In this document: positions 19,401-61,010 of the stretch, piece by piece | Position numbering within the stretch: position 1 is the stretch's first letter | Layout: each line of letters begins with the position of its first letter | Assembly: GCF_900102545.1 (NCBI RefSeq) | Contig: NZ_FNBN01000008.1 | Span: forward strand, 190,019-254,018 | Origin: Chitinophaga filiformis | GTDB taxonomy: Bacteria; Bacteroidota; Bacteroidia; Chitinophagales; Chitinophagaceae | DNA: 64,000 nucleotides | Direction of reading: 5' to 3' | Translations under genes and position numbers: made by a program | Notes under the pieces: generated by a model | What the model saw: only the letters and a program-made list of their open reading frames with translations | What the model was told of the DNA's origin: nothing | The model's database searches: none

Positions 19401-22400
19401 GTGGCTCGTTGTTGTAAGGAGCGTGACTGAATACCGGCGTACCGAATTTGGTAGTGTAGTCAGTACCCTGTACGCAATCCACTGTCAGCGGACCAGGTAC
19501 GGATATCACAACAGGCGGAACATTCATCAGGGTCAGCATTACTGCGTTGCTGATGTTGCCTGTACATGCACCTGACATTACCACACGTCTGTACCAGGTA
19601 TTCTGTGTGATCATTGGAGGAGTATAAGTTGCATTTGTGCCGTTGGTAGCCACATTTACGAAGCCGGTAGTAGCATTTGTGATGCTCACCTGCCATTGGT
19701 AAGTGAAGGTACCGTTACCACCACTCAGGGTAGCGCCCTGCAGTGTAGCAGGAGTCTGGTTAGCACAAAGCAGCTGATCTGCGGTGATGGTGTTACCGAG
19801 GATTGCGCCCTGGTTAGTCAGCACCACTTCATCAGGAGTTGAAGTACATGTTCCGTTAGTGATTGTCCAGCGGAGGGTTACGGTACCACCGGCAGGAACT
19901 GTCACTTTCGTAGATGCGCTGTGTATGTCAGCGATAGTAGCCGTACCACTTACAATGGTCCAGGTACCGGTAGCGGTAGCAGGAGACGGTATGTTAGCCG
20001 ACATTGTAAAGTTTGGATCGTCACAATGAGTCTGATCAGCACCGGCAGCTGCGTTAGCTGGCATCTGGTGGTTGGTCAGGATCACATTATCAGATGTGGT
20101 ACAAGTACCGTTTTTGATAGTCCATGTAGCTGTTACAGTTACACCCGCAGGTACTGTGATCACAGCATTCGGATTGTTCCAGTCAGTAGCAGCGATGCTT
20201 GCAGTTGTACCCGCGGGCAGGCTCCATGTACCGGTACCAACAGAAGGAGTGTTGGCGGCCATTACGAAACGGTCGTTATCGCAATGCGTCATATCACCAC
20301 CAGCGTTGGCATTAGCCGGCTGTACGTAGTTGGTCAGGACAACATCATCGGAAGTTACACAGTTACCATTTCTGATAGTCCATGTAGCTGTTACAGTCAC
20401 ACCCGCAGGTACTGTGATGGCAGCATTTGGATTAGTACTGTCGGATACAGCGAATGATGCAGTAGTTCCGGCAGACAGGCTCCATTTACCTACACCAACA
20501 GATGGTGCGTTAGCGGCCATTCTGAAGGCAGGAGTGTTACACTGTTCCTGGTCAGGACCAGCGGCAGCAGCAGTTGGCTGTTGATAGTTGGTCAGTGTTA
20601 CATTATCGCTGGTAGTACATACTCCGTTGCGGATAGTCCATGTAGCTGTTACGGTTACACCGGCAGGTACATTTATTACTGCATTCGGGTTAGTACTGTC
20701 TGCCACCGCGAAGGAAGCAGTAGAACCAGCAGGCAGGCTCCATTTACCCACACCTACAGATGGCGTGTTAGCAGCCATTGTGAAGGCAGGAGTGTTACAC
20801 TGTGCCTGGTCAGGACCGGCAGCAGCAGGAGCTGGTGCAACATAGTTGGTCAGTCTTACAGTATCAGTAGTGGTACATACACCGTTGGTGATGGTCCAGA
20901 TCGCCTGAACTGACTGACCAGCAGGTACGTTGATCACTGCATTTCTGTTGGAACTGTCAGCCACCGCGAAGGAAGCGGTAGATCCGGCTACCAGGCTCCA
21001 TTTACCCACGCCTACAGATGGTGCAGCAGCAGCCATGGTGAAGGTTGGTGTGTTACATTTTTCCTGGTCAGGACCGGCAGCAGCAGGAGTTGGTGCTACA
21101 TAGTTGATGAGTGTTACATCATCAGTAGAAGTACAACTACCGTTTGTGATGGTCCAACGCAGTGTTACAGTAGTACCGGCATTTACAGTGATAGTAGCTG
21201 CCGCGTTGTTTATACTTGCCGCAGGGAGAGTGAATCCTGCAGGAGAAGAAGATACTACACTCCATGCACCGGTTCCCACAGTTGGCACGTTAGCAGCCAG
21301 CGTGAAGGATGGTGTGTTACACTTAGACTGGTCAGGACCAGCTGCAGATGTAGTCGGCGGAGCATCATTCTTTAATACCACATCGTCAGTCAATACGCAG
21401 GTACCATTGGTGATCGTCCAGCGGAGGGTCACAGTAGTACCGGCAGGTACGGTGATGGCAGCAGTTGGGTTGTTTACGCTCGCTGCAGGGAAAGTAAATC
21501 CGGCAGGAGAAGAAGACACCACGCTCCATGCACCTGTTCCTATAACTGGCGCGTTAGCCGCCAATGTGAAGGATGGTGTATTACACTTGGTCTGATCGGC
21601 GCCAGCAAGCGGAGTTGTTGGCAGTGCATTGTTAACCAGTGTTACATCGTCTGTAGTAGAACAAGTACCGTTAGTGGTCGTCCAGCGGAGAGTCACTGTA
21701 GTACCAGCAGGTACAGTGATGGTAGCGGTTGGGTTGCTTACGCTCGCAGCAGGGAATATAAATCCTGCAGGAGTAGAAGAAACTACGCTCCATGCACCAG
21801 TTCCAACAGTTGGCGCGTTAGCAGCCAGTGTGAAGGAAGGCGTATTACATTTAGTCTGATCAGCACCAGCAGCAGCAGTTGTTGGCGGAGCATCATTTTT
21901 CAGTACCACATCGTCAGTTAACACGCAGGTACCGTTAGTGATAGTCCAGCGCAGCGTTACTGTTGTACCGGCAGGTACAGTGATGGCAGCAGTTGGATTA
22001 TTCACACTCGCAGCAGGGAAGGTAAATCCTGCAGGAGTAGAAGAAACCACGCTCCATGCGCCTGTTCCCACAGTTGGTGCATTAGCAGCCAGTGTGAAGG
22101 CAGGAGTGTTACATTGAGTCTGGTCTGCACCAGCAGCAGGAGTAGTTGGTGGCGCATCGTTTGTCAGTGTTACCGCATCAGAAACGGAGCAGGTACCATT
22201 TACTACAGTCCATGTAGCTACTACTGAAACACCAGCAGGAACATTGATTACAGCGGTTGGGCTGTTCTGCTGACCTGCAGTGATGGTAGCAGTTGTACCA
22301 GCAGGCAGTGTCCACGTACCGGTTTGACCAGCAGCAGGTGCATTAGCTGCCATTGTAAAGGCAGGGGTATTACACTTAGTCTGATCAGCACCAGCTGCAG

Positions 22401-25400
22401 CAGTTGGCAGTGCATCGTTTGTCAGCGTTACCGCATCGGAAACGGAGCAGGAACCATTTACTACGGTCCATGTAGCTGTTACAGTTACACCAGCAGGTAC
22501 ATTAATTACCGCAGCTGGATTGTTCTGCTGACCAGCAGTGATGGTAGCAGTGGTACCAGCAGGCAGTGTCCATGTACCGGTTTGACCAGCAGCAGGCGTG
22601 TTGGCTGCCATGGTGAAGGCAGTGGTATTACACTGTGCCTGGTCTGGACCAGCAGTAGCTGTTGGCAGTGCATCATTAGTTAATGTTACTGCATCGGAAG
22701 TGGTACAAACACCATTTGTGATGGTCCAGGTAGCCACTACAGAAGTACCAACAGGTACAGTTATTACAGCGGTTGGGCTGTTTTGCTGACCAGCAGTGAT
22801 AGTTGCAGTAGAACCAGCAGGCAGTGTCCAGAGGCCGGTTCCCACAGTTGGTGCGTTAGCAGCCATTGTGAAGGCAGGTGTGTTACACTGTGCCTTATCC
22901 GGACCGGCAGCAGCAGGAGCTGGTGCTGCATAGTTGGTCAGTATAACATCGTCAGAAGTTACACATGTACCGTTAGTGATAGTCCATGTTGCAGTTACAG
23001 TCACACCCGCAGGTACGTTGATTACTGCATTTGGATTAGTACTGTCTGCCACAGCGAAGGAAGCAGTGGTGCCTGCTGTCAGGCTCCATTTACCTACGCC
23101 TACAGATGGTACGTTGGCCGCCATTGTGAAGGCTGGAGTATTACATTTTTCCTGGTCAGGACCCGCAGCAGCAGGTGATGGCATTTCATCATTTGTCAGC
23201 AGCACGGTGTCAACTGAAGGACAGGTACCATTGGTGATAGTCCAGATAGCTGTTACGGTAGCACCGGTTGGTACGTTGATCACAGCATTTGGTTTGTTTT
23301 CATCACCAGGAGTGATAGTACCAGGAGATCCGGCAGCCAGTGTCCAGGTACCGGTAGCACCAGGAACATCCGGAGCGTTTGCTGTCATAATGAATGTAGG
23401 AATGTTACAATCACGCTGATCAGGGCCTGCATTAGCAGGAGAAGGAGTCAGGAAGTTGGTCAGTGATACTTCATCGAAGTTTTCACAGAGACCGTTTTTG
23501 ATAGTCCAGCGGAGAACAGCGGTAGCACCGTTTGCAACAGTGATATGCGCCGCAGCCAGGTTTTCTTCACCAGCCGCGATAGTAGCAGCACCACTAATAA
23601 CAGTCCAGGTACCTACAGCACCAGGCACAGTTGGCGTATTTGCAGCTGTTACAAAGTCTGTACCAGCACATTTAGCCTGGTCTGGACCCGCATTAGCTAC
23701 GTCAGGTAACTGATAGTTGGTAATCACCAAATCATCGCTGGTAGTACATACACCATTGGTGATAGTCCATCTCAATGTCAGGACTGTACCCGCAGGGATG
23801 CTGAGGCTTGCGGTTGGGTTGTTCACCTGAGCCGCAGGGAAAGTAAAGCTGGCAGGAGATACCACGGTCCATGTACCGGTTGCACCGGCCACAGACGGAG
23901 CATTAGCCGCCAGGGTGAAGGTGGATGTATTATTACATTCCTGTTGGTCAGGACCTGCATTAGCGGCAGCTGGTGCCTCATCGTTGGTGAGGATCACATC
24001 GTCGCTCAGAGAGCAGGTACCGTTGGTGATAGTCCAGCGCAGTGTTACAGTAGTACCGGCGGGTACAGTGATAACTGCAGTTGGATTGTTCACACTTGCC
24101 GCAGGGAAAGTAAATCCGGCAGGAGTAGAGGAAACCACGCTCCATGCACCTGTTCCAACAGTTGGTGCGTTAGCAGCCAGTGTGAAGGAAGGTGTGTTAC
24201 ATTTTTCCTGGTCAGGACCAGCAACCGGAGTTGTTGGCTGAGCGTTGTTTATCAGGGTAACGTCATCTGTAGAAGTACAGCTGCCGTTAGTGATGGTCCA
24301 GCGCAGCGTTACAGTTGTACCGGCAGGTACAGTGATCGCCGCGGTTGGGTTGTTCACGCTCGCCGCAGGGAAAGTAAATCCGGCAGGAGTAGAAGAAACT
24401 ACGCTCCATGCACCGGTACCCACAGTTGGTGCGTTAGCAGCCAATGTGAAGGCAGGTGTATTACATTTTTCCTGGTCAGCACCAGCAGCAGCTGTAGTTG
24501 GCGGAGCATCATTTGTCAGTACCACGTCGTCTGAGAGAGAGCATGTACCGTTAGTGATGGTCCAGCGCAGCGTTACAGTTGAACCAACAGGTACAGTGAT
24601 GGCAGCAGTTGGGTTGTTCACGCTCGCCGCAGGGAAGGTAAATCCTGCAGGAGAAGAAGAAACTACGCTCCATGCGCCTGTTCCAACGGTTGGTGCATTA
24701 GCAGCCAGTGTGAAGGCAGGAGTGTTACATTTTGTCTGGTCTGCACCAGCAGCAGGAGTAGTTGGCGGTGCATCGTTTGTCAGGGTTACCTGATCGGAAA
24801 CGGAGCAGGTGCCATTTACTACAGTCCATGTAGCTGTTACAGTTACACCGGCAGGTACGTTGATCACCGCAGTTGGGCTGTTTGCCTGACCCGCAGTGAT
24901 GGTAGCAGTAGTACCGCCTGGCAGTGTCCATGTACCGGTTTGACCGGCAGCAGGTGTATTAGCTGCCATTGTGAAGGCAGGGGTATTACATTTTGCCTGG
25001 TCTGGACCCGCAGTAGCAGTTGGCAGTGCATCGTTTTTCAGCACAACGGCATCAGAAACGGAGCAGGTACCATTTACTACAGTCCATGTAGCTGTTACAG
25101 TTACACCGGCAGGTACATTAATTACCGCAGCTGGATTGTTCTGCTGACCAGCAGTGATGGTAGCAGTAGAACCAGCAGGCAGTGACCATGTACCGGTCTG
25201 ACCGGCAGCAGGTGTATTAGCTGCCATTGTGAAGGCAGTGGTATTACACTTAGTCTGGTCTGGACCAGCAGCAGCTGTTGGCAGTGCATCATTAGTTAAC
25301 ACCACCTGATCGGAAGTGGTACAAACACCATTTGTGATAGTCCATGTAGCAGTTACAGTTACACCGGCAGGAACATTAATTACCGCGGTTGGGCTGTTCT

Positions 25401-28400
25401 GCTGACCAGCAGTGATAGTAGCAGTAGTACCGCCAGGCAGTGTCCATGTACCGGTACCTACAGAAGCTGCATTGGCAGCCATTGTGAAGGAGGTAGTGTT
25501 ACACTTGCTCTGATCTGCACCAGCATTAGCAGCTGTTGGCGCTACATAGTTAATGAGTGTTACATCATCAGTAGAAGTACATGTACCATTGGTGATGGTC
25601 CAACGCAGTGTTACCGTAGTACCGGCAGGTACAGTGATAGCAGCAGTTGGGTTGTTTACACTAGCAGCAGGGAAAGTAAATCCGGCAGGAGTAGAAGAAA
25701 CTACGCTCCATGCGCCTGTACCCACAGTTGGCGTGTTAGCAGCCAGTGTGAAAGCAGGCGTGTTACACTTAGACTGGTCGGGACCAGCAGCAGATGTAGT
25801 TGGCGCAGCGTCATTCTTTAATATAACATCGTCAGTCAATACGCAGGTACCGTTAGTGATCGTCCAGCGGAGGGTCACAGTGGTACCGGCAGGTACGGTG
25901 ATGGTCGCAGTTGGGTTATTCACGCTCGCAGCAGGGAAGGTAAATCCAGCAGGAGTAGAAGAAACCACGCTCCATGCACCAGTTCCAACAGTTGGCGCGT
26001 TAGCAGCCAGTGTGAAGGAAGGTGTATTACATTTAGTCTGGTCTGCACCAGCAGCAGGAGTAGTTGGCAGTGCACTGTTAGTCAGTATCACATCATCAGT
26101 AGAAGTACATGTGCCATTAGTAATAGTCCAGCGCAGTGTTACCGTAGTACCGGCAGGTACAGTGATAGCAGCGGTTGGATTATTTACACTCGCTGCAGGG
26201 AAAGTGAAACCTGCAGGAGTAGAAGAAACTACGCTCCATGCGCCTGTTCCAACAGTTGGTGCGTTAGCAGCCAGTGTGAAGGAAGGCGTATTACATTTTG
26301 CCTGGTCAGCGCCAGCAGCAGCTGTAGTTGGCGGAGCATCATTTTTCAGTACCACGTCATCTGTAAGAGAGCAGGTACCGTTGGTGATCGTCCAACGCAA
26401 TGTTACTGTTGAACCAACAGGTACAGTGATAGTAGCTGTTGGGTTGTTTACGCTTGCCGCAGGGAAGGTAAATCCGGCAGGAGTGGAAGAAACCACACTC
26501 CATGCACCAGTTCCTACGGTTGGTGCGTTAGCAGCCAGTGTGAAGGATGTATTGTTACATTTTGTCTGATCAGCACCAGCAGCAGGAGTAGTTGGTGTCG
26601 CGTCGTTCTTCAGCGTTACCGCGTCAGAAACACTACAAGTGCCATTTACGACAGTCCATGTAGCTACTACAGTTACACCGGCAGGTACATTGATAACAGC
26701 GGTAGGGCTGTTTGTCTGACCAGCAGTGATAGTAGCAGTGGTGCCGCCAGGCAGTGTCCATGTACCGGTCTGACCGGCAGCAGGTGTATTAGCTGCCATT
26801 GTGAAGGCAGGAGTATTACACTTAGTCTGGTCAGGACCTGCAGCAGCTGTTGGCAGTGCATCGTTTTTCAGCACAACGGCATCTGAAACGGAACAGGTAC
26901 CATTTACTACAGTCCATGTAGCTGTTACGGTAACACCGGCAGGTACATTAATTACTGCGGCTGGGTTGTTCTGCTGACCAGCAGTGATGGTAGCAGTAGA
27001 ACCGCCAGGCAGTGACCATGTACCGGTACCTACAGCAGGTGTATTAGCCGCCATTGTGAAGGCAGTGGTATTACACTTAGTCTGATCAGGACCTGCAGCA
27101 GCTGTTGGCAGTGCATTATTAGTTAATACTACCTGATCTGAAGTAGTACATGCACCATTTGTGATAGTCCAGGTAGCCGTTACAGTTACACCGGCAGGAA
27201 CGTTAATTACAGCGGTTGGGCTGTTCGCCTGACCGGCAGTGATAGTAGCAGTAGTACCGCCAGGCAGTGTCCAGGTACCGGTACCTACAGAAGCTGCATT
27301 GGCAGCCATTGTGAAGGCGGTAGTGTTACACTTGGTCTGGTCAGGACCTGCAGCGGCAGGATTTGGCGCCTGGAATACAGTCACGGTAGCGCTCGCACAG
27401 GTAGTGTTGGAGCATGCACCGGTAGTTTCAGCACGTACATAATAAGTGGTGGTAGCGCTCACTGCTACGGTAATTGAAGTACCGGTACCTATTGGAGCAC
27501 CTACTCCACAACCTCCGGCATACCATACCCATGTTCCGTTTGGTGTACCGTCAGCTTTCTGTCCCAGGCTTCCACCCACAACAGACAGCGTACTTGTACC
27601 GGAAGTACAGATATTCGGTGAACCCACCGCAATACCAGTCGGAGCAACAGGAGGAGTTTCTACGCTCACAGAGAAAGGAACGGTAGAATCACAACCTGCA
27701 TTCAGGCTGTTCTTGTAGCTCAGGTTGAAGTTATATACGCCACGTGCAGTGCCCACAGGGTAGTTAATTACCACCGGCCATGCAGTGATAGGCTGGTTGT
27801 TAATCGCTGTAAATCCTGGCAGGGCAGGAACGCCGGCAGTAATACTGTAAGTATCCGGGTTACCACTTGTAGACAGTGTATCCAGTGAGAATGTACCGGA
27901 TGTGTTACAGGTAATAATAGATGGCTTCAGTGAAATTACCGGACGGGCAGTTTTATGTAATATAACAGTATCCACACTTGGCGTACAGTTCGCAGCATTC
28001 GTGATAGACCATGTCAGCACAATATCCTGCGGATTTGCGTTGGAGGTAACTGTTGTATTATATGCATGAATGTTTGCGATGGTAGCATTACCAGAGATAA
28101 GTTTCCATGTACCGGTTTCCGCGTACGGCCCGGTCAATGTACCATCCGGCTGGCTGGCATTCATCGTAAAGACATTGGTGGCACACAGTGTTGTGTCACG
28201 ACCCGCGTCACTGAAAGTTGGATCGTACAGGAGGGTTACTTCAACAAAGTCGCTGCTGGAGCAGGCTGTGTTGGCAGTAGCTTTCACTGTCCACTTGAAT
28301 CTTACCGTGATACCACCTTTCTTCAGTGTTACCCTTGTTCCCTTGAGATTAGGGAACATAATACTCGCATAGTTTTTGAAGTCAGCGGCAGTAATACTAG

Positions 28401-36835: not shown

Positions 36836-36852
36836 AGGCTTCCCTTTTATTT
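36822..36852 (+). terminator. tilS terminator
   Basis: GGGAAGCC / GGCTTCCC stem with a 7-base loop overlapping the tilS stop codon, followed by TTTTATTT. It is between convergent tilS and the small receiver gene. Confidence 0.8.
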
Positions 36853-37299
36853 GAAATTATTGATGAGGCTATTGAACTCGGGAAAGGAATGTTTCTTCAG
36901 ACAGAAATCATAAAAATGTTGCGCTGAAGAAAGATACTCCTCATACGTAAATGGTTTTACCATGTAAGACAATGCTCCCAGTTGTTTGCACTCGTGCATT
37001 TCTATCACATTTAGTGAAGAAGAGAAAATAATTACAGGAATGTCTTTATAGGCGAGCTGGCTTTTCAGTTCCCGCAAGGTTTGTGTACCACTGAGACGTG
37101 GCATATTGAGATCAAGTACCACAAGAGAAGGCATAACGCCTGCGCTTGCATGTGTATTAGCAAGGTATTCCAGTGCCTTCTCTCCATCTTCTACCAGGAG
37201 GGGCACCTCCGGCAGATTAATCGCATTAAAGGCATCCTGCATGATGAAACGATCCTCCATGTCATCATCTGCCAGTAATATCTTCACAATACTCTCCAT
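36847..37299 (-). CDS. Single-domain response regulator (stressosome locus output)
   Basis: 150 residues, receiver only. Acidic pair DDD at 11-13, phospho-acceptor Asp63 (VLDLNMPRLSG), Ser pair in FSSS and Lys-Pro in VKPFTYEEY. It resembles the Rcp1-type receivers that partner phytochrome-like kinases. It is the last gene of the stressosome block, 41 bases behind the histidine kinase. With no DNA-binding domain, it must act by protein contact or pass phosphate on; the target is not in the window. Confidence 0.9.
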   Translation of the reverse strand: MESIVKILLADDDMEDRFIMQDAFNAINLPEVPLLVEDGEKALEYLANTHASAGVMPSLVVLDLNMPRLSGTQTLRELKSQLAYKDIPVIIFSSSLNVIEMHECKQLGALSYMVKPFTYEEYLSSAQHFYDFCLKKHSFPEFNSLINNFK

Positions 37300-37340
37300 A
37301 ACTAATAAATTCTTTCTTTAGATAAAAAACTAATGTCCCG

Positions 37341-38957
37341 CTATGCCACCAGTGGTAAGGTCAGAATGAACTTTGCACCTCTTCCCGGTGTACTGCTGGC
37401 GGTAATGGACCCGTTGTGCAGATCTGCGATCTTCTTGCACATAGCCAGTCCTATACCGGTGCCTGCATATTTTTCGCGGGAGTGTAACCGTTGGAATAAG
37501 CTGAACATTTTATCCAGGTATTTTTCTTCAAATCCCACCCCGTTATCTTCAAAAATCAATTGTATCTGTGTTTCTCTCATTGCTGCATACACTTTCACTT
37601 CAGGTAGACGCTGTTCGTCGGAGAACTTGAGCGCATTGGACAGGATATTGTGAAACAACTGGCGCATCTGCATCGGATATACCGATAACACAGGCAGAGG
37701 CGCCACATCTATGCGTGCACATTTTGCTTTGATGGCTACATCCAGATCCTTCATGGCTTCAGCAGCAAGTACATTCATATCTGTTTTCACCAGGTGCAGG
37801 CTCTCCCTGTATATCCTCGAAAAGTTCAGCAGATCATGGATCAGCCGCGTCATTCGCTGACTGGCGCCTATCATATTGCCCAGAAAAAGCTTTCCCCTGT
37901 CGTCTATCAGTTCTGTATAATACCTGCTCAGGTAGTCGCTGTAGTAAACGATCTTTCGCAGTGGCTCCTGTAAGTCGTGTGATGCCGCATAGGCAAACTG
38001 TTCCAGTTCCTGGTTGCTGCGGTTCAGTTCTCTGATCTTTTCTTCCAGCAGCAACTTTGTTTCCTGCAGTTCTTTATTGTCCCTCAATGTCTGTTCCATG
38101 ACCTTTTGTGCATGAATGTCTACCAGGGAGCCTATCCAGTACAATGTTTCTCCGTTCTCATTGATCATCGGCGCCAGGGAAAGCAGGTGCCAGATATATT
38201 CCTGCGTTGCATAATTCTTCAGTTCTATTTCCCTCCTCAGTGGTTTGTTTGCCGTCCGGTGCATGTACCAGTGTTCCCATGCGCGGGCAAAGATCTCCTC
38301 GCGGACCACCAGGCGCCATTTACTTTCGTTCAGTTCACTGATATCATAACCCGTAAACGATTTCATCCAGCTGTTAGCGTAAAGAACCTGACCCTCGTCG
38401 TTCAGGCTGAATATCATCAACGGAAGGGCATTGGTTACTTCCCTGTACTGTGTTTCACTTTCCTTTAGCTTTTCGGCCAGTTCCAGCAGCTGTTTGTTCT
38501 TACGTTTTATCTCGTCGTACGGAGATAAAGGCAATTCCACGCTGAAAGCGGATATCCATTGCCGGATCCTGCCGTTATTGATCTTCTGTATCCCAGGGAT
38601 CCTGTATTCCAGCATGATCTCAATCCCTTTGTCTTCACGTTCGAGAGAGAACCGATCAACGAGTCTCCTGGCATACACCAGGTTCTCGTTGATCTTCTCT
38701 GTAAGATTCGGATTCCCGTCCAGCACCTGTGCAACGAGATACTGTTCCGGTTCCTTTATATCACTTCTGATAGCCAGTATAAGAACGGCATTGTATCCAT
38801 ACTCTATGACATGTCTTGACACCTCAGACACGGCAGTTGCAAAGGTGGTCTGTGATGCAAGGGATAGTCCGGCCAGCTCTCCGAGTTTCATGATGCGTTT
38901 ATGCACCAGTACCAGGTCCATATCAGTTTCCAGCGTGATCCGGGTTATTTCCTGCAT
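37341..38957 (-). CDS. PAS sensor histidine kinase with degenerate RsbT-like N-terminal domain
   Basis: 538 residues, soluble. Residues 1-145 resemble the small RsbT/RsbW-type ATPase fold of the neighbouring genes (VHKRIMKLGELAGLSLASQTTFATAVSEVSR compares with the RsbT pattern, read as GELAGLSLASQTTFATAVSE), but the G1 and G2 nucleotide loops are missing. A coiled segment and a PAS domain (about 170-290) follow, then HisKA with His327 (ASHDLQEPL) and an intact HATPase (ILSNALKFS, EDNGVGFEE, GTGIGLAMCKK). I infer that the N-terminal domain docks on the stressosome or competes with RsbT. The first 23 codons are copied in the tandem repeat just upstream. Confidence 0.88.
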   Translation of the reverse strand: MQEITRITLETDMDLVLVHKRIMKLGELAGLSLASQTTFATAVSEVSRHVIEYGYNAVLILAIRSDIKEPEQYLVAQVLDGNPNLTEKINENLVYARRLVDRFSLEREDKGIEIMLEYRIPGIQKINNGRIRQWISAFSVELPLSPYDEIKRKNKQLLELAEKLKESETQYREVTNALPLMIFSLNDEGQVLYANSWMKSFTGYDISELNESKWRLVVREEIFARAWEHWYMHRTANKPLRREIELKNYATQEYIWHLLSLAPMINENGETLYWIGSLVDIHAQKVMEQTLRDNKELQETKLLLEEKIRELNRSNQELEQFAYAASHDLQEPLRKIVYYSDYLSRYYTELIDDRGKLFLGNMIGASQRMTRLIHDLLNFSRIYRESLHLVKTDMNVLAAEAMKDLDVAIKAKCARIDVAPLPVLSVYPMQMRQLFHNILSNALKFSDEQRLPEVKVYAAMRETQIQLIFEDNGVGFEEKYLDKMFSLFQRLHSREKYAGTGIGLAMCKKIADLHNGSITASSTPGRGAKFILTLPLVA

Positions 38958-39204
38958 TGCGGCTATTTTACTTTAACAATTACTATCGACTATCATCAGT
39001 CATGATGCCTTTATGCACCAATACCGGATCCATACCAGTTTCCAGCGTGATCTGTGTTTATCGCTATTTCACTTTAACAATTACTATCGACATATCATCA
39101 GTCATGATGCCTTTATGCACCAATACCGGATCCATACCAGTTTCCAGCGTGATCTGTGTTTATCGCTACTTCACTTTAACAATTACTATCGACATATCAT
39201 CAGT
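38889..39204. repeat. Three-copy tandem repeat fusing the ends of two genes
   Basis: Copies begin at 38889, 39001 and 39103 (periods 112 and 102). Copies 2 and 3 differ at one base over most of their length; copy 1 is more diverged and is the one carrying the working kinase start. Each unit joins the first codons of the kinase gene to the last codons of the phosphatase gene, so the array arose by duplication across the intergenic junction. Confidence 0.9.
39064..39135 (-). CDS. Micro-ORF created by the tandem repeat (23 residues)
   Basis: ATG at 39135 to TAG at 39064. The first 11 residues (MDPVLVHKGIM) derive from the kinase N-terminus and the last 12 (TDDMSIVIVKVK) from the phosphatase C-terminus, both in the parental frames. 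A second copy (38983-39033) is cut short by a one-base deletion (ends TDDSR). It may be translated between phosphatase and kinase on the same mRNA, but no ribosome-binding site is evident and it could be inert. Confidence 0.3.
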   Translation of the reverse strand: MDPVLVHKGIMTDDMSIVIVKVK

Positions 39205-40191
39205 CTTACGTGCATTATCCTTATAGATAGCGGCAGCCAGTACTGACATATCATACCTGAAAATGGCCGGATACTTCATCATGTCCCAGCGGGTCCTTAT
39301 CCCATCGGAGCACAGAATGAGCACCTGATCTTTTCCCTGCATATGAGCTGTTTCCTGTTCGTTTATAGTACGGGGCATGTTATGTCCTATGATACCATTG
39401 TACGGAAGATAGGTCCTGGATGTGGCAGCTGTCAGCATACGTGCATGTATATTTCCCACTCCACAGATCTTCCATGTCTGGGTTTTATTACTATAAACTG
39501 CTATAGTGCCTACAAGGCCGCGGGTACGTTTTACATCGTCATGCATCTGGCGTAGTACTTCGCCCAGGTCGGAGAGCATACAGTAGCGAAAAGAATGGAC
39601 AGCAGCAGCAACGGCTTTATTCGCTTCCACGCCATGACCCAGTCCATCTCCCAGGAAAACCCTTATGCCGGCCCTGTCAGAGCGAACATAATAGTCATCA
39701 CCGCATACCCTTTCTCCCGGTTTTGCAATGAGTAGGGTCCTGATCTCAGCACCGGGTTTGGGGGGATATTGTTCTGCCGGTTTGATAAAGAACCTTGATA
39801 CCAGTATAGTACCCCAGCCCTTTACAGAATAGATCTGAAGGAAGTCTGACAGACGTTTGACGGCTCCCAGTCCGTGGCCGAGCGTTTTGGCAGTTGATAT
39901 TCCATCCTGCATCATTCTGGCCAGATCTGTAATACCGGGACCACTATCTATGGCCAGGATCTCTATAGCTGGCTGGGGAGTATCGGTAAGCATCACCAGT
40001 ACTTCTCCGCCTCCTGCATGTTTGATGATATTGGATCCTATTTCAGCAACGACGATATCGATCTCGGCCACTCTCTTGTCTGTCAGTCCGCATTGTATTG
40101 AAAGACGGTGCACCTCACGTTTCAGAATGGCCAGATAGCTTCTGTCATCTAAACTGAAACTGATATGCCGTCCGGTTACCCATTCTTCCAT
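39166..40191 (-). CDS. RsbX/SpoIIE-type PP2C phosphatase with fused N-terminal HATPase
   Basis: 341 residues. Residues 1-135 are an RsbT/RsbW-like ATPase with N box (Glu50..Asn54, EIGSN), G1 (DSGPGI, 82-87) and G2 (GHGLGA, 105-110). Residues about 145-341 form a PP2C/SpoIIE phosphatase with metal-site aspartates (CGDDYY, Asp165-166; GDGLGHG, Asp182; LCSDGI; KTDDMSIVIV). In Bacillus, RsbX dephosphorylates RsbR and RsbS to reset the stressosome; the fused ATPase domain is extra. The start overlaps rsbT by 16 bases, so translation is coupled. Confidence 0.9.
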   Translation of the reverse strand: MEEWVTGRHISFSLDDRSYLAILKREVHRLSIQCGLTDKRVAEIDIVVAEIGSNIIKHAGGGEVLVMLTDTPQPAIEILAIDSGPGITDLARMMQDGISTAKTLGHGLGAVKRLSDFLQIYSVKGWGTILVSRFFIKPAEQYPPKPGAEIRTLLIAKPGERVCGDDYYVRSDRAGIRVFLGDGLGHGVEANKAVAAAVHSFRYCMLSDLGEVLRQMHDDVKRTRGLVGTIAVYSNKTQTWKICGVGNIHARMLTAATSRTYLPYNGIIGHNMPRTINEQETAHMQGKDQVLILCSDGIRTRWDMMKYPAIFRYDMSVLAAAIYKDNARKTDDMSIVIVKVK

Positions 40192-40586
40192 TTAGTGATT
40201 GTGATGGTAGTTCCTTTACCCACCGTACTTTTAATATCAAAATCGTTCACCAGACGCCTGGCTCCCGGTAGTCCCAATCCAAGGCTTTTACCGGTAGAGA
40301 AGCCATCTTTCATGGCCTTGTCTATATCGGGTATACCCGGACCTGTATCTGAAAAGGTGACGCGCACCCCATTTTGTCGCTGGCCGTTTACTATTTCAAT
40401 GAGCACTGCACCACCTCCGGCGTAACGGAGCATATTCCTGGAAAGTTCACTGGCGGCAGTGATCAGTTTTGTCTGATTGACAAGGCTCATGCCGATTTTG
40501 ACAGCAAACTCTTTCAACCTGTTTCTGAAGACCACCATATCCAGTTCCTTCGCTATACGCATATTGTCACTGGAGAGTACTATCAT
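40176..40586 (-). CDS. rsbT: RsbT-like serine/threonine kinase of the stressosome
   Basis: 136 residues from the ATG at 40586, which puts the fold at family length; the frame is open upstream inside rsbS. N box ELSRNMLRYA (47-56), G1 DTGPGIP (80-86), G2 GLGLPG (103-108) are intact, so ATP binding is expected. In Bacillus, RsbT sits on the RsbR/RsbS complex, phosphorylates it under stress and is then released to activate a phosphatase. It overlaps rsbS by 20 bases and the phosphatase gene by 16. Confidence 0.92.
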   Translation of the reverse strand: MIVLSSDNMRIAKELDMVVFRNRLKEFAVKIGMSLVNQTKLITAASELSRNMLRYAGGGAVLIEIVNGQRQNGVRVTFSDTGPGIPDIDKAMKDGFSTGKSLGLGLPGARRLVNDFDIKSTVGKGTTITITKWKNG

Positions 40587-40965
40587 CTTCAATTTCTTCT
40601 TCTTCGGTGATCTGTATTTTTTTCTGCAGGAGTTCCATGCCTTTTTCGACATTCAGCGCTGTCTGCACACCCTTCAATGGTAAACCCAGTTCTACCAACG
40701 TTATAGCTACAGCAGGCTGCATGCCAACTATCACTGTTTCAGCATCCAGTATCTTGCTCATGCCGGCTATATTCCCCAGTATGCGGCCCATAAAAGAGTC
40801 GACTATGGAAACAGATGAAATATCTATCAACACGCCTTTGGCGCCTGTTTTACTTACCGCCTGCACCAGGTCTGATTCCAGGCCGAGTGCAAGCCGGTCA
40901 TACAAATCCACCTGAATGGCCACCATGAGAAAATGACCAATTTTAAGAATCGGTATTTTATCCAT
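40567..40965 (-). CDS. rsbS: RsbS-like STAS-domain stressosome scaffold
   Basis: 132 residues from the ATG at 40965 (a TTG directly upstream is also in frame). Single STAS domain: KIGHFLMVAIQVDL, GVLIDISSVSIVDSF, GMQPAVAITLVELG. Ser57 in IVDSF matches the RsbT-phosphorylated Ser59 of Bacillus RsbS. A short acidic tail (EEEEIEDD) is unusual. The gene overlaps rsbR by 8 bases and rsbT by 20. Confidence 0.92.
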   Translation of the reverse strand: MDKIPILKIGHFLMVAIQVDLYDRLALGLESDLVQAVSKTGAKGVLIDISSVSIVDSFMGRILGNIAGMSKILDAETVIVGMQPAVAITLVELGLPLKGVQTALNVEKGMELLQKKIQITEEEEIEDDSTLQ

Positions 40966-41833
40966 CAATGCCTGCTTTTGTTTTTACAATTGGTCTTCTG
41001 ACCTCCAGCTGCAGCAGCGAAAAGGCATGCCTTAACGCGCTGGCGAGGGTTGCTTTCGTAACAATACCAGAGAGGTCTATACCGAGGTGAACGACAGTCT
41101 GAGCTATTTCAGGACGGATACCGCTGATGATACACTCTGCACCCATCAGCCGGGTAGCGCTTACAGTTTTTAGGAGGTGCTGTGCAACGAGAGAATCCAC
41201 AGCGGGCACACCTGAAATATCCAGGATTGCAATGCTGCTGGATGTAGCAACAATTTCCTGCAACAGGTTTTCCATTACTACCTGTGTACGGGCGCTGTCC
41301 AGTGTACCAATGATAGGCATGGCTACAATGCCATCCCATACGCGGATAACAGGAGTGGAGATCTCCGCTATTTCATCAGTCTGGCGCAGAATGACTTCTT
41401 CTCTCCCTTTAATGAAAGTTTCAAAAGTAACAATACCAAGGCTGTCGATCAGTTTACTCACTTTCATGCTCTCGTCAAGCAGCTGAACAGGATCATTTTT
41501 GATCTCCTGCTGGAGTACGTTGAGCAGGGCATCTTTCAGGCTAAAAACAAAGGTGCCGGTCTCCCTGGGAGAATAGCCCATTTTAGCACGGGAACGGGAA
41601 ATAGTTTCCAGGACTTCATACAGTGGTTCGAAAGATGCAGATTGTACATCTTCCAGGTTGTCATTGCTTAAAGTTTGTAATAAAACATTTACAAGTTCTT
41701 CTGACTGTACTGACAGTTCTTCGTTCGACATAAGGTCTTCCCGTAGAGAAAAATCCACTAATTGATTCTTCATCCACAATTCGAGAATCTGCTTTTTCCT
41801 TTTCTGTAAAATTTTAGCTGTGTCTAGCTTCAT
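40958..41833 (-). CDS. rsbR: RsbR-like stressosome sensor-scaffold
   Basis: 291 residues from the ATG at 41833; codons further upstream to 41887 do not match family starts. The N-terminal half is helical, of the RsbRD_N type (ILQKRKKQILELW, GYSPRETGTFVFSLKDAL), with no globin-like haem pocket, PAS or LOV visible. The C-terminal half is a STAS domain (ILDISGVPAVDSLVAQHL, GIRPEIAQTVVHLGIDLS) nearly superimposable on Bacillus RsbR. The phospho-sites correspond to a Ser in VDS and the Thr in IAQT. First gene of the stressosome block. The input signal is unknown. Confidence 0.92.
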   Translation of the reverse strand: MKLDTAKILQKRKKQILELWMKNQLVDFSLREDLMSNEELSVQSEELVNVLLQTLSNDNLEDVQSASFEPLYEVLETISRSRAKMGYSPRETGTFVFSLKDALLNVLQQEIKNDPVQLLDESMKVSKLIDSLGIVTFETFIKGREEVILRQTDEIAEISTPVIRVWDGIVAMPIIGTLDSARTQVVMENLLQEIVATSSSIAILDISGVPAVDSLVAQHLLKTVSATRLMGAECIISGIRPEIAQTVVHLGIDLSGIVTKATLASALRHAFSLLQLEVRRPIVKTKAGIDG

Positions 41834-43210: not shown

Positions 43211-43284
43211 GGCTTCGTAGCTCAACTGAATAGAGCATCTGACTACGGATCAGAAGGTTTCTGGTTTGAATCCAGACGAGGTCA
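43211..43284 (+). tRNA. tRNA-Arg(ACG), copy 1
   Basis: 74 nt. Acceptor GGCTTCG pairs with CGAGGTC (two G-U pairs, 2-71 and 4-69), anticodon stem TCTGA/TCAGA around loop CTACGGA (anticodon ACG), T-stem TCTGG/CCAGA, discriminator A, no encoded CCA. The D arm TAGCTC-AACTGAATA-GAGCA is standard. Confidence 0.95.
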
Positions 43285-43320
43285 CAAAAAAAGCTTCACT
43301 TCATGTGGGGCTTTTTTTTG
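43285..43320 (+). terminator. Terminator of the first tRNA-Arg gene
   Basis: CAAAAAAAGC-tt-CAC / GTG-gg-GCTTTTTTTTG hairpin directly after the tRNA. Confidence 0.85.
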
Positions 43321-44546: not shown

Positions 44547-44620
44547 GGCTCCGTAGCTCAACTGAATAGAGCATCTGACTACGGATCAGAAGGTTTCTGG
44601 TTTGAATCCAGACGGAGTCA
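44547..44620 (+). tRNA. tRNA-Arg(ACG), copy 2
   Basis: 74 nt, identical to copy 1 except in the acceptor stem: GGCTCCG pairs with CGGAGTC. Relative to copy 1, pair 5-68 is C-G instead of U-A (both sides changed) and pair 4-69 is U-A instead of U-G. Anticodon ACG, discriminator A, no encoded CCA. Confidence 0.95.
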
Positions 44621-44621
44621 C

Positions 44622-60660: not shown

Positions 60661-61010
60661 CGCCCAACAACGCCTCATCAACAAAACACAATAAGGCCCC
60701 GGTAGGGGTCCTATTGTTTGTTGCGCGGGGGAACCCCTGGGTGGGTTGATAACCCCGGGGAACCGTGGGGTACAACCGGAAAACAACGTGTCATTAACAA
60801 AACATAATAAGGCCCCGGTAGGGGTCCTATTGTTTGTAGCGCGGGTTGATAACCCCGGGGAACCGTGGGGTACAACCGGAAAACAACGCGCCATTAACAA
60901 AACATAATAAGGCCCCGGTAGGGGTCCTATTGTTTGTAGCGCGGGGTGAAACCCCGGGTGGGGTGATAACCCCGCAAAAACGCGGGATGACAACCCGGAA
61001 AACGACGTGT
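60661..61010. repeat. GC-rich three-copy intergenic tandem repeat
   Basis: Units (anchored on ATAAGGCCCC) start at 60691, 60807 and 60907, periods 116 and 100. Each holds a hairpin-forming AATAAGGCCCC-ggta-GGGGTCCTATT core, then GGGTT-gat-AACCCC and CCCCGGGG elements. The third unit decays into CGGGG/CCCCG hairpins ending near 61010. No coding frame is conserved among the units. It is not a CRISPR: units are too long and there are no distinct spacers. Confidence 0.88.

Follow-up and report, generated by a model that had tools for sequence, protein, structure and literature searches.

The stressosome proteins RsbR, RsbS and RsbT of Bacillus and Listeria belong to the RsbRST–RsbU–sigma-B system. 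Other outputs are known as well: PMC9237108 distinguishes eleven architectures downstream of RSTX modules, HisKA/REC phosphorelays among them, and notes RsbU_N domains on some of the downstream proteins; the majority of the downstream proteins considered there lack RsbU_N, the interaction of VvRsbT with the VvD1 kinase was not positive, and the globin-type clusters are said to have a single-domain PP2C phosphatase. RsbU_N kinases and the control exerted through linkers are discussed in sections of PMC12143880, and deletions of the upstream and the downstream module of Vibrio vulnificus give similar phenotypes according to a part of PMC10014275. How stressosomes unconnected to sigma-B pass their signal to two-component proteins is the question addressed here with a candidate coupling domain. 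It is carried by a histidine kinase (HK) encoded in a 64,000-nt stretch of the soil bacterium Chitinophaga filiformis (assembly GCF_900102545.1, contig NZ_FNBN01000008.1, positions 190,019–254,018 of the forward strand), hereafter called the window. By its genes, the locus is a putative RsbRST module, with an RsbR combining a sensor N-domain and STAS, an RsbS with the phospho-Ser and an RsbT with GHKL motifs, all adjacent; a PP2C phosphatase, the HK and a receiver follow (Table 1).

We read this locus, with a probability of roughly 0.5, as a stressosome with the linked HK as its direct output, where the HK N-domain (HKN) would mimic RsbT and so keep the kinase bound to the STAS core. Taken separately, a coupling of the HK to the stressosome through HKN appears distinctly probable, and the chances that HKN docks on this core in the manner of RsbT are about even.

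The RsbT-like character of the HK N-terminus, claimed in an initial annotation made from the sequence alone, was borne out by hhalign, the HKN profile (built without the rows of loci L082 and L114) scoring 98.3% (E 1.9e-14) against RsbT, 29% against the PP2C N-domain and 1% against HK HATPases. What that annotation missed is that HKN no longer has the ATP site, its G1 box (DxGxG) being gone in 38/40 rows and intact in 46/46 RsbT and 39/39 PP2C N-domains. Pfam reports nothing significant for residues 1–153 of the window HK (best E 0.19) and no match to RsbU_N at E ≤ 1; the motif-bearing domains of L082 and L114 match HATPase_c_2. The AlphaFold model of the same residues is confident (predicted local distance difference test, pLDDT, 88.8; 61 sequences), and its closest structural counterparts are RsbW and anti-sigma kinases of the SpoIIAB type (Z 15.1, root-mean-square deviation 1.6 over 103 residues), ahead of SiaB (Z 11.5), LvrC, a regulator from Leptospira (Z 10.9), and the ATPase domains of HKs (Z of 8.6 or less). 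When the window RsbT was searched against solved structures with phmmer, only four SpoIIAB and two sensor-kinase sequences were matched. Together, profiles and model point to HKN being an RsbT-derived domain with the RsbW/SpoIIAB fold which has mostly lost its ATP G1 box.

The profile comparison does not favour the view that HKN was copied from the ATPase domain of PP2C or from the HATPase domain of the HK itself. A tree built from 49 of the 125 domain rows unites the PP2C domains in a single starred group (100/99) and places 13 HKN rows, that of L082 among them, to one side of a starred branch. The L114 domain sits with the RsbT rows at the end of a long branch (1.59) and may therefore stem from a separate fusion. 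The full-length HK model (pLDDT 82.1) has a predicted template modelling score (pTM) of 0.41, and the relative placement of its domains is therefore unsure; it features a helix (residues 146–177) running from a conserved SPY motif into PAS and a long helix (281–346) running into the kinase core.

The occurrence of the domain was surveyed with HK residues 1–170 as the query. Among 294 genomes of the family (HKN at E ≤ 1e-4, RsbT at E ≤ 1e-15), RsbT was found in 31 and HKN in 32, including all 31 with RsbT; the sole genome with HKN and without RsbT (G270) belongs to the same genus as the window. Both genes are present in 21 of the 101 genera sampled. The search for the same gene order in the family, proposed with the initial annotation, recovered RsbT and PP2C before the HK in 30/31 other loci, two of which are truncated at the edge of a contig, along with RsbR and RsbS wherever the contig extends far enough. 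From the GTDB species genomes, the best 80 of 326 relatives of the HKN alignment were kept, and 77 of these 80 loci display the RsbT–PP2C–HK order; 75 also have RsbR and RsbS, and in the remaining two the locus begins at the contig edge. The exceptions to the order are L141, L160 and L168. An order-level sample of 396 genomes contained 17 with HKN at E ≤ 1e-12; the four new ones (L207–L210) all have RsbT and PP2C beside the HK, and no new orphan was encountered. Homologous loci in which the kinase is never linked to the RST genes, which were named as grounds for giving up the proposed wiring, are clearly not what these surveys reveal. Since the gene order recurs across relatives, and since RsbT and HKN occur in 21/101 genera, the locus can be rejected as a product of chance or an annotation artefact.

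Judging by titles and taxonomy, we take the best 80 loci to be from Bacteroidota (Chitinophaga, Niastella, Spirosoma, Larkinella, Cytophaga, Flavobacterium and others), except for the metagenome-assembled genome (MAG) L174; this MAG, titled Williamsia sp., holds a Bacteroidota module and is probably mislabelled. The nearest named locus among the relatives is from Chitinophaga filiformis, with 91% identity over HKN (records of the own genome were possibly excluded). Variants of the module include two tandem RsbR genes in L065 and L158 and a doubled R-S-T set in L151, after which the same PP2C–HK pair follows. PP2C in L150 and the HK in L128 and L158 are split into two open reading frames by mutation or sequencing error.

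The genes themselves were largely as initially annotated: six minus-strand genes had been placed at 36847–41833, and all of these reading frames are present, with Pfam in agreement, while the overlaps of 8, 20 and 16 bases between the first four match the coordinates exactly. The starts of RsbR, RsbS and RsbT are chosen ATGs, and longer frames exist upstream for all three. A second solved RsbS is also matched by the window RsbS (E 1.7e-30), and RsbR matches solved RsbR proteins. The window genome appears to contain a single RsbRST set: RsbR and RsbS account for two of the four STAS matches genome-wide, and there is one RsbT match at E ≤ 1e-15. There is also one strong HKN match, the next ones being RsbT itself (9e-5) and two repeat fragments.

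Table 1. Features of the stressosome locus in window coordinates, with the evidence for each (aa, amino acids)
Feature	Position	Strand	Evidence
RsbR homologue, 291 aa, RsbRD_N+STAS	40958..41833	-	Pfam RsbRD_N 1.1e-24, STAS 1.9e-14; alignment to solved RsbR
RsbS homologue, 132 aa, STAS	40567..40965	-	Pfam STAS 2.9e-8; solved RsbS 6jhk, E 3.9e-32
Putative RsbS phospho-acceptor Ser57 codon	40795-40797	-	Ser in 113/113 rows
RsbT homologue, 136 aa; N-box E47/N51, G1 D80xG82xG84, G105	40176..40586	-	Pfam HATPase_c 1.1e-14
PP2C (SpoIIE/RsbX-like) phosphatase, 341 aa, RsbT/RsbW-type ATPase domain ~19-129, motifs intact	39166..40191	-	Pfam HATPase_c_2 2.7e-10, SpoIIE 9.5e-8
Tandem repeat, 102 bp, 2.4 copies, built from PP2C 3' end and HK 5' end	38962..39205	.	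Absent from L119-L122
Histidine kinase (HK), 538 aa: pseudo-RsbT domain, linker helix, PAS, HisKA, HATPase	37341..38957	-	Pfam PAS+HisKA+HATPase_c; AlphaFold
HK residues 1-121, RsbT-derived pseudo-ATPase without G1 box	38595..38957	-	hhalign, AlphaFold, structure match to RsbW
HK residues 146-177, linker helix starting at conserved SPY-[DE]-E-IKRKN motif	38427..38522	-	Conservation, full-length model
Single-domain receiver, 150 aa, putative phospho-acceptor Asp63	36847..37299	-	Pfam Response_reg 3.6e-17; Asp63 in 75/75 rows

Residues were counted over the window plus the linked loci, where some genomes are present in two surveys. Conservation of the RsbS phospho-Ser, claimed earlier, extends to every row (Table 1), and the RsbT nucleotide motifs, likewise described as intact, are kept as D80, G82, G84 and G105 in 115/115 rows and as the N-box E and N in 113/115 (two gaps). 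PP2C retains D165, D182, D296, D331 and D332, which we take to be its catalytic Asp residues, in 115/115 rows; it has a SpoIIE domain with conserved Asp residues like RsbX but is not single-domain, HATPase_c_2 being added at the N-terminus. In the HK, H327, N437, D471, G499, G501 and G503 do not vary across 52 rows, so by sequence the HK and the receiver hold the residues required of a two-component pair (H, N, G1, G2 and the phospho-Asp). The IAQT motif of RsbR fared less well: its Thr is indeed kept in 107/112 rows but is not the phosphosite. Both phospho-Thr positions of RsbR (the Listeria sites are given in a part of PMC9237128) align with Ser in the window (Ser180 and Ser214 in the alignment to 6qcm), and the first of them is Ser in 111/112 rows. 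The locus is not alone in this, as the RsbR of 7o0i also combines a Ser at the first site with a Thr at the second, and the Ser residues may still be phosphorylatable.

Outside the class of the window, the place of HKN is taken by another domain. The sample of 395 genomes of the phylum (RsbT at E ≤ 1e-15, HKN at E ≤ 1e-8) contains RsbT in 16, eight within the class (window included) and eight outside; HKN occurs in exactly the eight same-class genomes and in 0/8 of the RsbT genomes outside the class. In 7/8 of the latter, the downstream HK carries RsbU_N and HisKA_3 (L113 slightly under the Pfam cut-off), and both neighbouring regulators checked at the RsbU_N loci have a LuxR-type DNA-binding domain. 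The eighth locus, L114 (genome G474), has a larger output array of another kind: after RST and PP2C come a receiver-bearing HK, an HK whose RsbT-like domain has intact ATP motifs, two genes that match receivers and one more kinase gene. Residues R19, R23 and N24 of RsbT are named as its interface with RsbU in PMC12143880, and R19 and R23 are kept in 7/7 RsbTs beside RsbU_N kinases. The RsbT of the HKN class has R at position 19 in 33/38 rows, K at 23 in 34/38 and mostly E at 24, and HKN has H at 19 in 33/40, M at 23 in 36/40 and mostly K or R at 24. By domain content, then, the window's class holds an RsbT-like domain where the other sampled Bacteroidota kinases hold the RsbT receptor RsbU_N. 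This substitution and the lost ATP site, neither of them noticed in the initial annotation, are the most telling feature of the locus.

This positional swap also feeds the main rival explanation, that RsbT, once freed, activates the HK by forming a GHKL heterodimer with HKN, which would make HKN an RsbT receptor rather than a STAS-docking mimic. The RsbW/SpoIIAB family, whose fold is predicted for HKN, forms dimers; in kinases outside the class, the corresponding N-terminal position is filled by RsbU_N, the known receptor of RsbT; and helix 1 is among the best-conserved parts of HKN, with K or R at position 24 in 35/40 HKN rows and E in 36/38 RsbT of the same class. Still, the charge pattern may be a coincidence, and D14, Q36 and R48 of HKN, common to RsbT itself, fit a shared partner at least equally well; we regard activation by a heterodimer as unlikely, though deserving of attention.

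Copies of HKN that have lost their neighbours provide another angle. Thirty HKN positions are conserved in at least 90% of the linked rows, and the 87 linked long HKs deviate at a median of one and a maximum of three of them; the orphan copies L075 (genome G270), L160 and L168 deviate at six, five and three, respectively. Asp14 is invariant in 98/98 unique linked rows and replaced by Gly in G270 and Ser in L168. The genome of L168 (G675, Larkinella rosea) yielded no match to RsbS or RsbT at E ≤ 1e-5, and G270 yielded no RsbS and, for RsbT, only weak matches located within reading frames that are 402 and 482 aa long. L160, where Asp14 is kept, is an unlinked second copy in L. terrae, a genome that also has the module. 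The unlinked HKN of the MAG L141 has no deviations; RST and PP2C lie on another contig of the same genome, and the 274 bases left after them on that contig contain no detectable HK start. Such a relaxation in the orphans fits with selection exerted on HKN by the stressosome. It would hardly be expected if HKN were a relic or a plain dimerisation domain and the HK merely co-transcribed, an explanation which draws on the survival of HKN in two genomes without detected RsbS and RsbT and on the loss of the G1 box in most rows, and which is set against the conservation in linked rows and the intact unlinked copy L141, with its RST elsewhere in the genome; we consider it the least probable of the explanations weighed here.

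As for the output, no sigma gene is found locally, in line with the initial annotation: 95 Sigma70_r2 matches occur genome-wide and none in the window. Pfam detected RsbU_N in none of the six proteins; no search was aimed specifically at RsbW genes. The receiver is confirmed to lack a DNA-binding domain, having Response_reg only. Its part in the module, which had been assumed, stands for the window, where it adjoins the HK, but not as a rule, so the receiver is an optional part of the module. Of the initial reading, the complete RST set with phosphatase in a conserved order with the HK is upheld, and the phosphorelay would be a candidate output. Two-component outputs of stressosomes, mentioned for other phyla in the same annotation, are already in print (PMC9237108).

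The short HKs (393–413 aa; L080–L084, L104 and L106) have no adjacent receiver, and the three scanned with Pfam (L080, L082 and L106) have no PAS. The latter result bears on the idea that the HK is an input, sensing via PAS and acting via HKN on a stressosome downstream of it. The window HK does have PAS, and a docking domain could act in either direction; at the same time, kinases without PAS are at odds with such a sensor role, and other stressosome HKs bear the output receptor RsbU_N, the two regulators checked beside them being LuxR-type DNA-binding proteins, which makes this direction of signalling quite improbable. A shade less probable still is phosphorylation of the HK by RsbT, as suggested in a part of PMC9237108 for stressosome kinases without RsbU_N: the idea is already in print and the RsbT motifs are intact, but it leaves a conserved RsbT-derived domain on the HK unexplained.

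In the preferred reading, with the HK held on the stressosome by an RsbT mimic, RsbR and RsbS would form the sensing STAS core, RsbT would phosphorylate RsbS Ser57 and RsbR, and the PP2C protein would reverse this. All three effectors, i.e., the switch kinase, the feedback phosphatase and the output HK, carry an RsbT-type GHKL domain, and HKN, having lost ATP binding, would serve as the docking module keeping the HK on the core. Phosphorylation of the core would then release or rearrange HKN, switching the HK via the conserved linker helix and PAS, and the HK would pass the phosphoryl group to the adjacent single-domain receiver or, where none is adjacent, to another one. STAS docking, the direction of the signal and the HK-to-receiver transfer are steps that we infer. 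In this way, the two jobs of Bacillus RsbT (STAS kinase and activator of the output protein) may be divided over two proteins. A fuller version, in which the HK itself is a client on the STAS core via a dead RsbT copy, the three RsbT-type domains compete for the same docking sites and the split of the RsbT jobs replaces the RsbT/RsbU_N contact, is put forward tentatively, at somewhat under even odds.

Several observations weigh against docking of the HK as an RsbT mimic. SpoIIAB and RsbW bind STAS partly via a region near the nucleotide site, and this region is lost in HKN. Two HK rows, L082 and L114, retain ATP motifs, and with them included the HKN profile matches the PP2C N-domain at 88%, RsbT at 99% and HK HATPases at 4%. 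Of 118 loci (window excluded; the set contains repeated genomes), only 74 have a receiver adjacent to the HK. Orphans are few, L160 and L168, both from Larkinella, may share events or ancestry, and the conserved positions were defined from linked rows, which biases the others toward deviation; HKN also persists without a detected stressosome in G270 and G675, so another use is possible. On the side of the swap, RsbR and RsbS were not detected beside RsbT in 2/7 RsbU_N loci (L117 and L118), and N24 is kept in just 1/7 RsbTs beside RsbU_N kinases.

One feature on which the initial annotation was silent is the gap of 208 bp between PP2C and the HK, occupied in the window by the 102-bp tandem repeat; in four Chitinophaga loci (L119–L122) the gap measures −1 to 5 bp. 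A role of the repeat in slippage control was considered and set aside: its unit is divisible by three, there are stops within the copies and it has no counterpart in L119–L122. Elsewhere, the window contains a long array of 258–264 bp tandem repeats (20071–27354), a 100-bp tandem repeat (60743–60958; 2.2 copies, 96% match) and a pair of co-oriented tRNA-Arg (ACG) genes separated by 1.3 kb (43211–43285 and 44547–44621).

Stressosomes with a two-component output are known; as far as our searches reach, the family of putative RsbT-mimic kinases is new. An RsbT-like domain on an HK was not found among the titles and abstracts listed in searches of the open-access literature, nor in parts of PMC9237108, PMC12143880, PMC10014275 and PMC9237128; Pané-Farré 2005 and 2017, considered here by way of PMC10014275, may describe it. 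The locus represents a large natural kinase family whose RsbT-derived candidate coupling domain co-occurs near-strictly with the stressosome, has lost the ATP site and is relaxed in copies whose genome lacks a stressosome. The coupling question thereby becomes testable in culturable bacteria, with Met13, Asp14 and Tyr147 as the residues to mutate, and the conserved wiring to an HK may show stressosome function without a sigma factor.

With the Bacillus/Listeria system, the locus shares RsbR, RsbS and RsbT in this order, the phospho-Ser of RsbS, the RsbT motifs and a PP2C phosphatase; it differs in that the window lacks a sigma factor, RsbU_N is absent from all six proteins, the phospho-Thr positions of RsbR are occupied by Ser and the output gene encodes an HK with an RsbT-derived pseudo-ATPase. 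Closer in layout is the RSTX module of Vibrio vulnificus with VvD1/VvD2 (parts of PMC9237108 and PMC10014275), where R-S-T-X is likewise followed by two-component genes and not by a sigma factor; the window, however, has an RsbR of the RsbRD_N type instead of a globin sensor, a phosphatase with an ATPase domain, a single-domain receiver and an HK with an RsbT-like N-domain. The RsbU_N kinases (L111–L113 and L115–L118; PMC9237108 and PMC12143880, in part) resemble the window HK in lying beside RsbT as the likely output and in bearing an N-terminal coupling domain, but theirs is RsbU_N combined with HisKA_3 and, in two cases checked, a LuxR-type regulator, whereas the window combines an RsbT-like domain with HisKA and a receiver free of DNA-binding domains. 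Finally, the anti-sigma kinases RsbW and SpoIIAB are alike in the predicted fold of HK residues 1–121 (Z 15.1 to RsbW) and unlike in that HKN has no ATP G1 box, is fused to an HK and has no sigma factor nearby.

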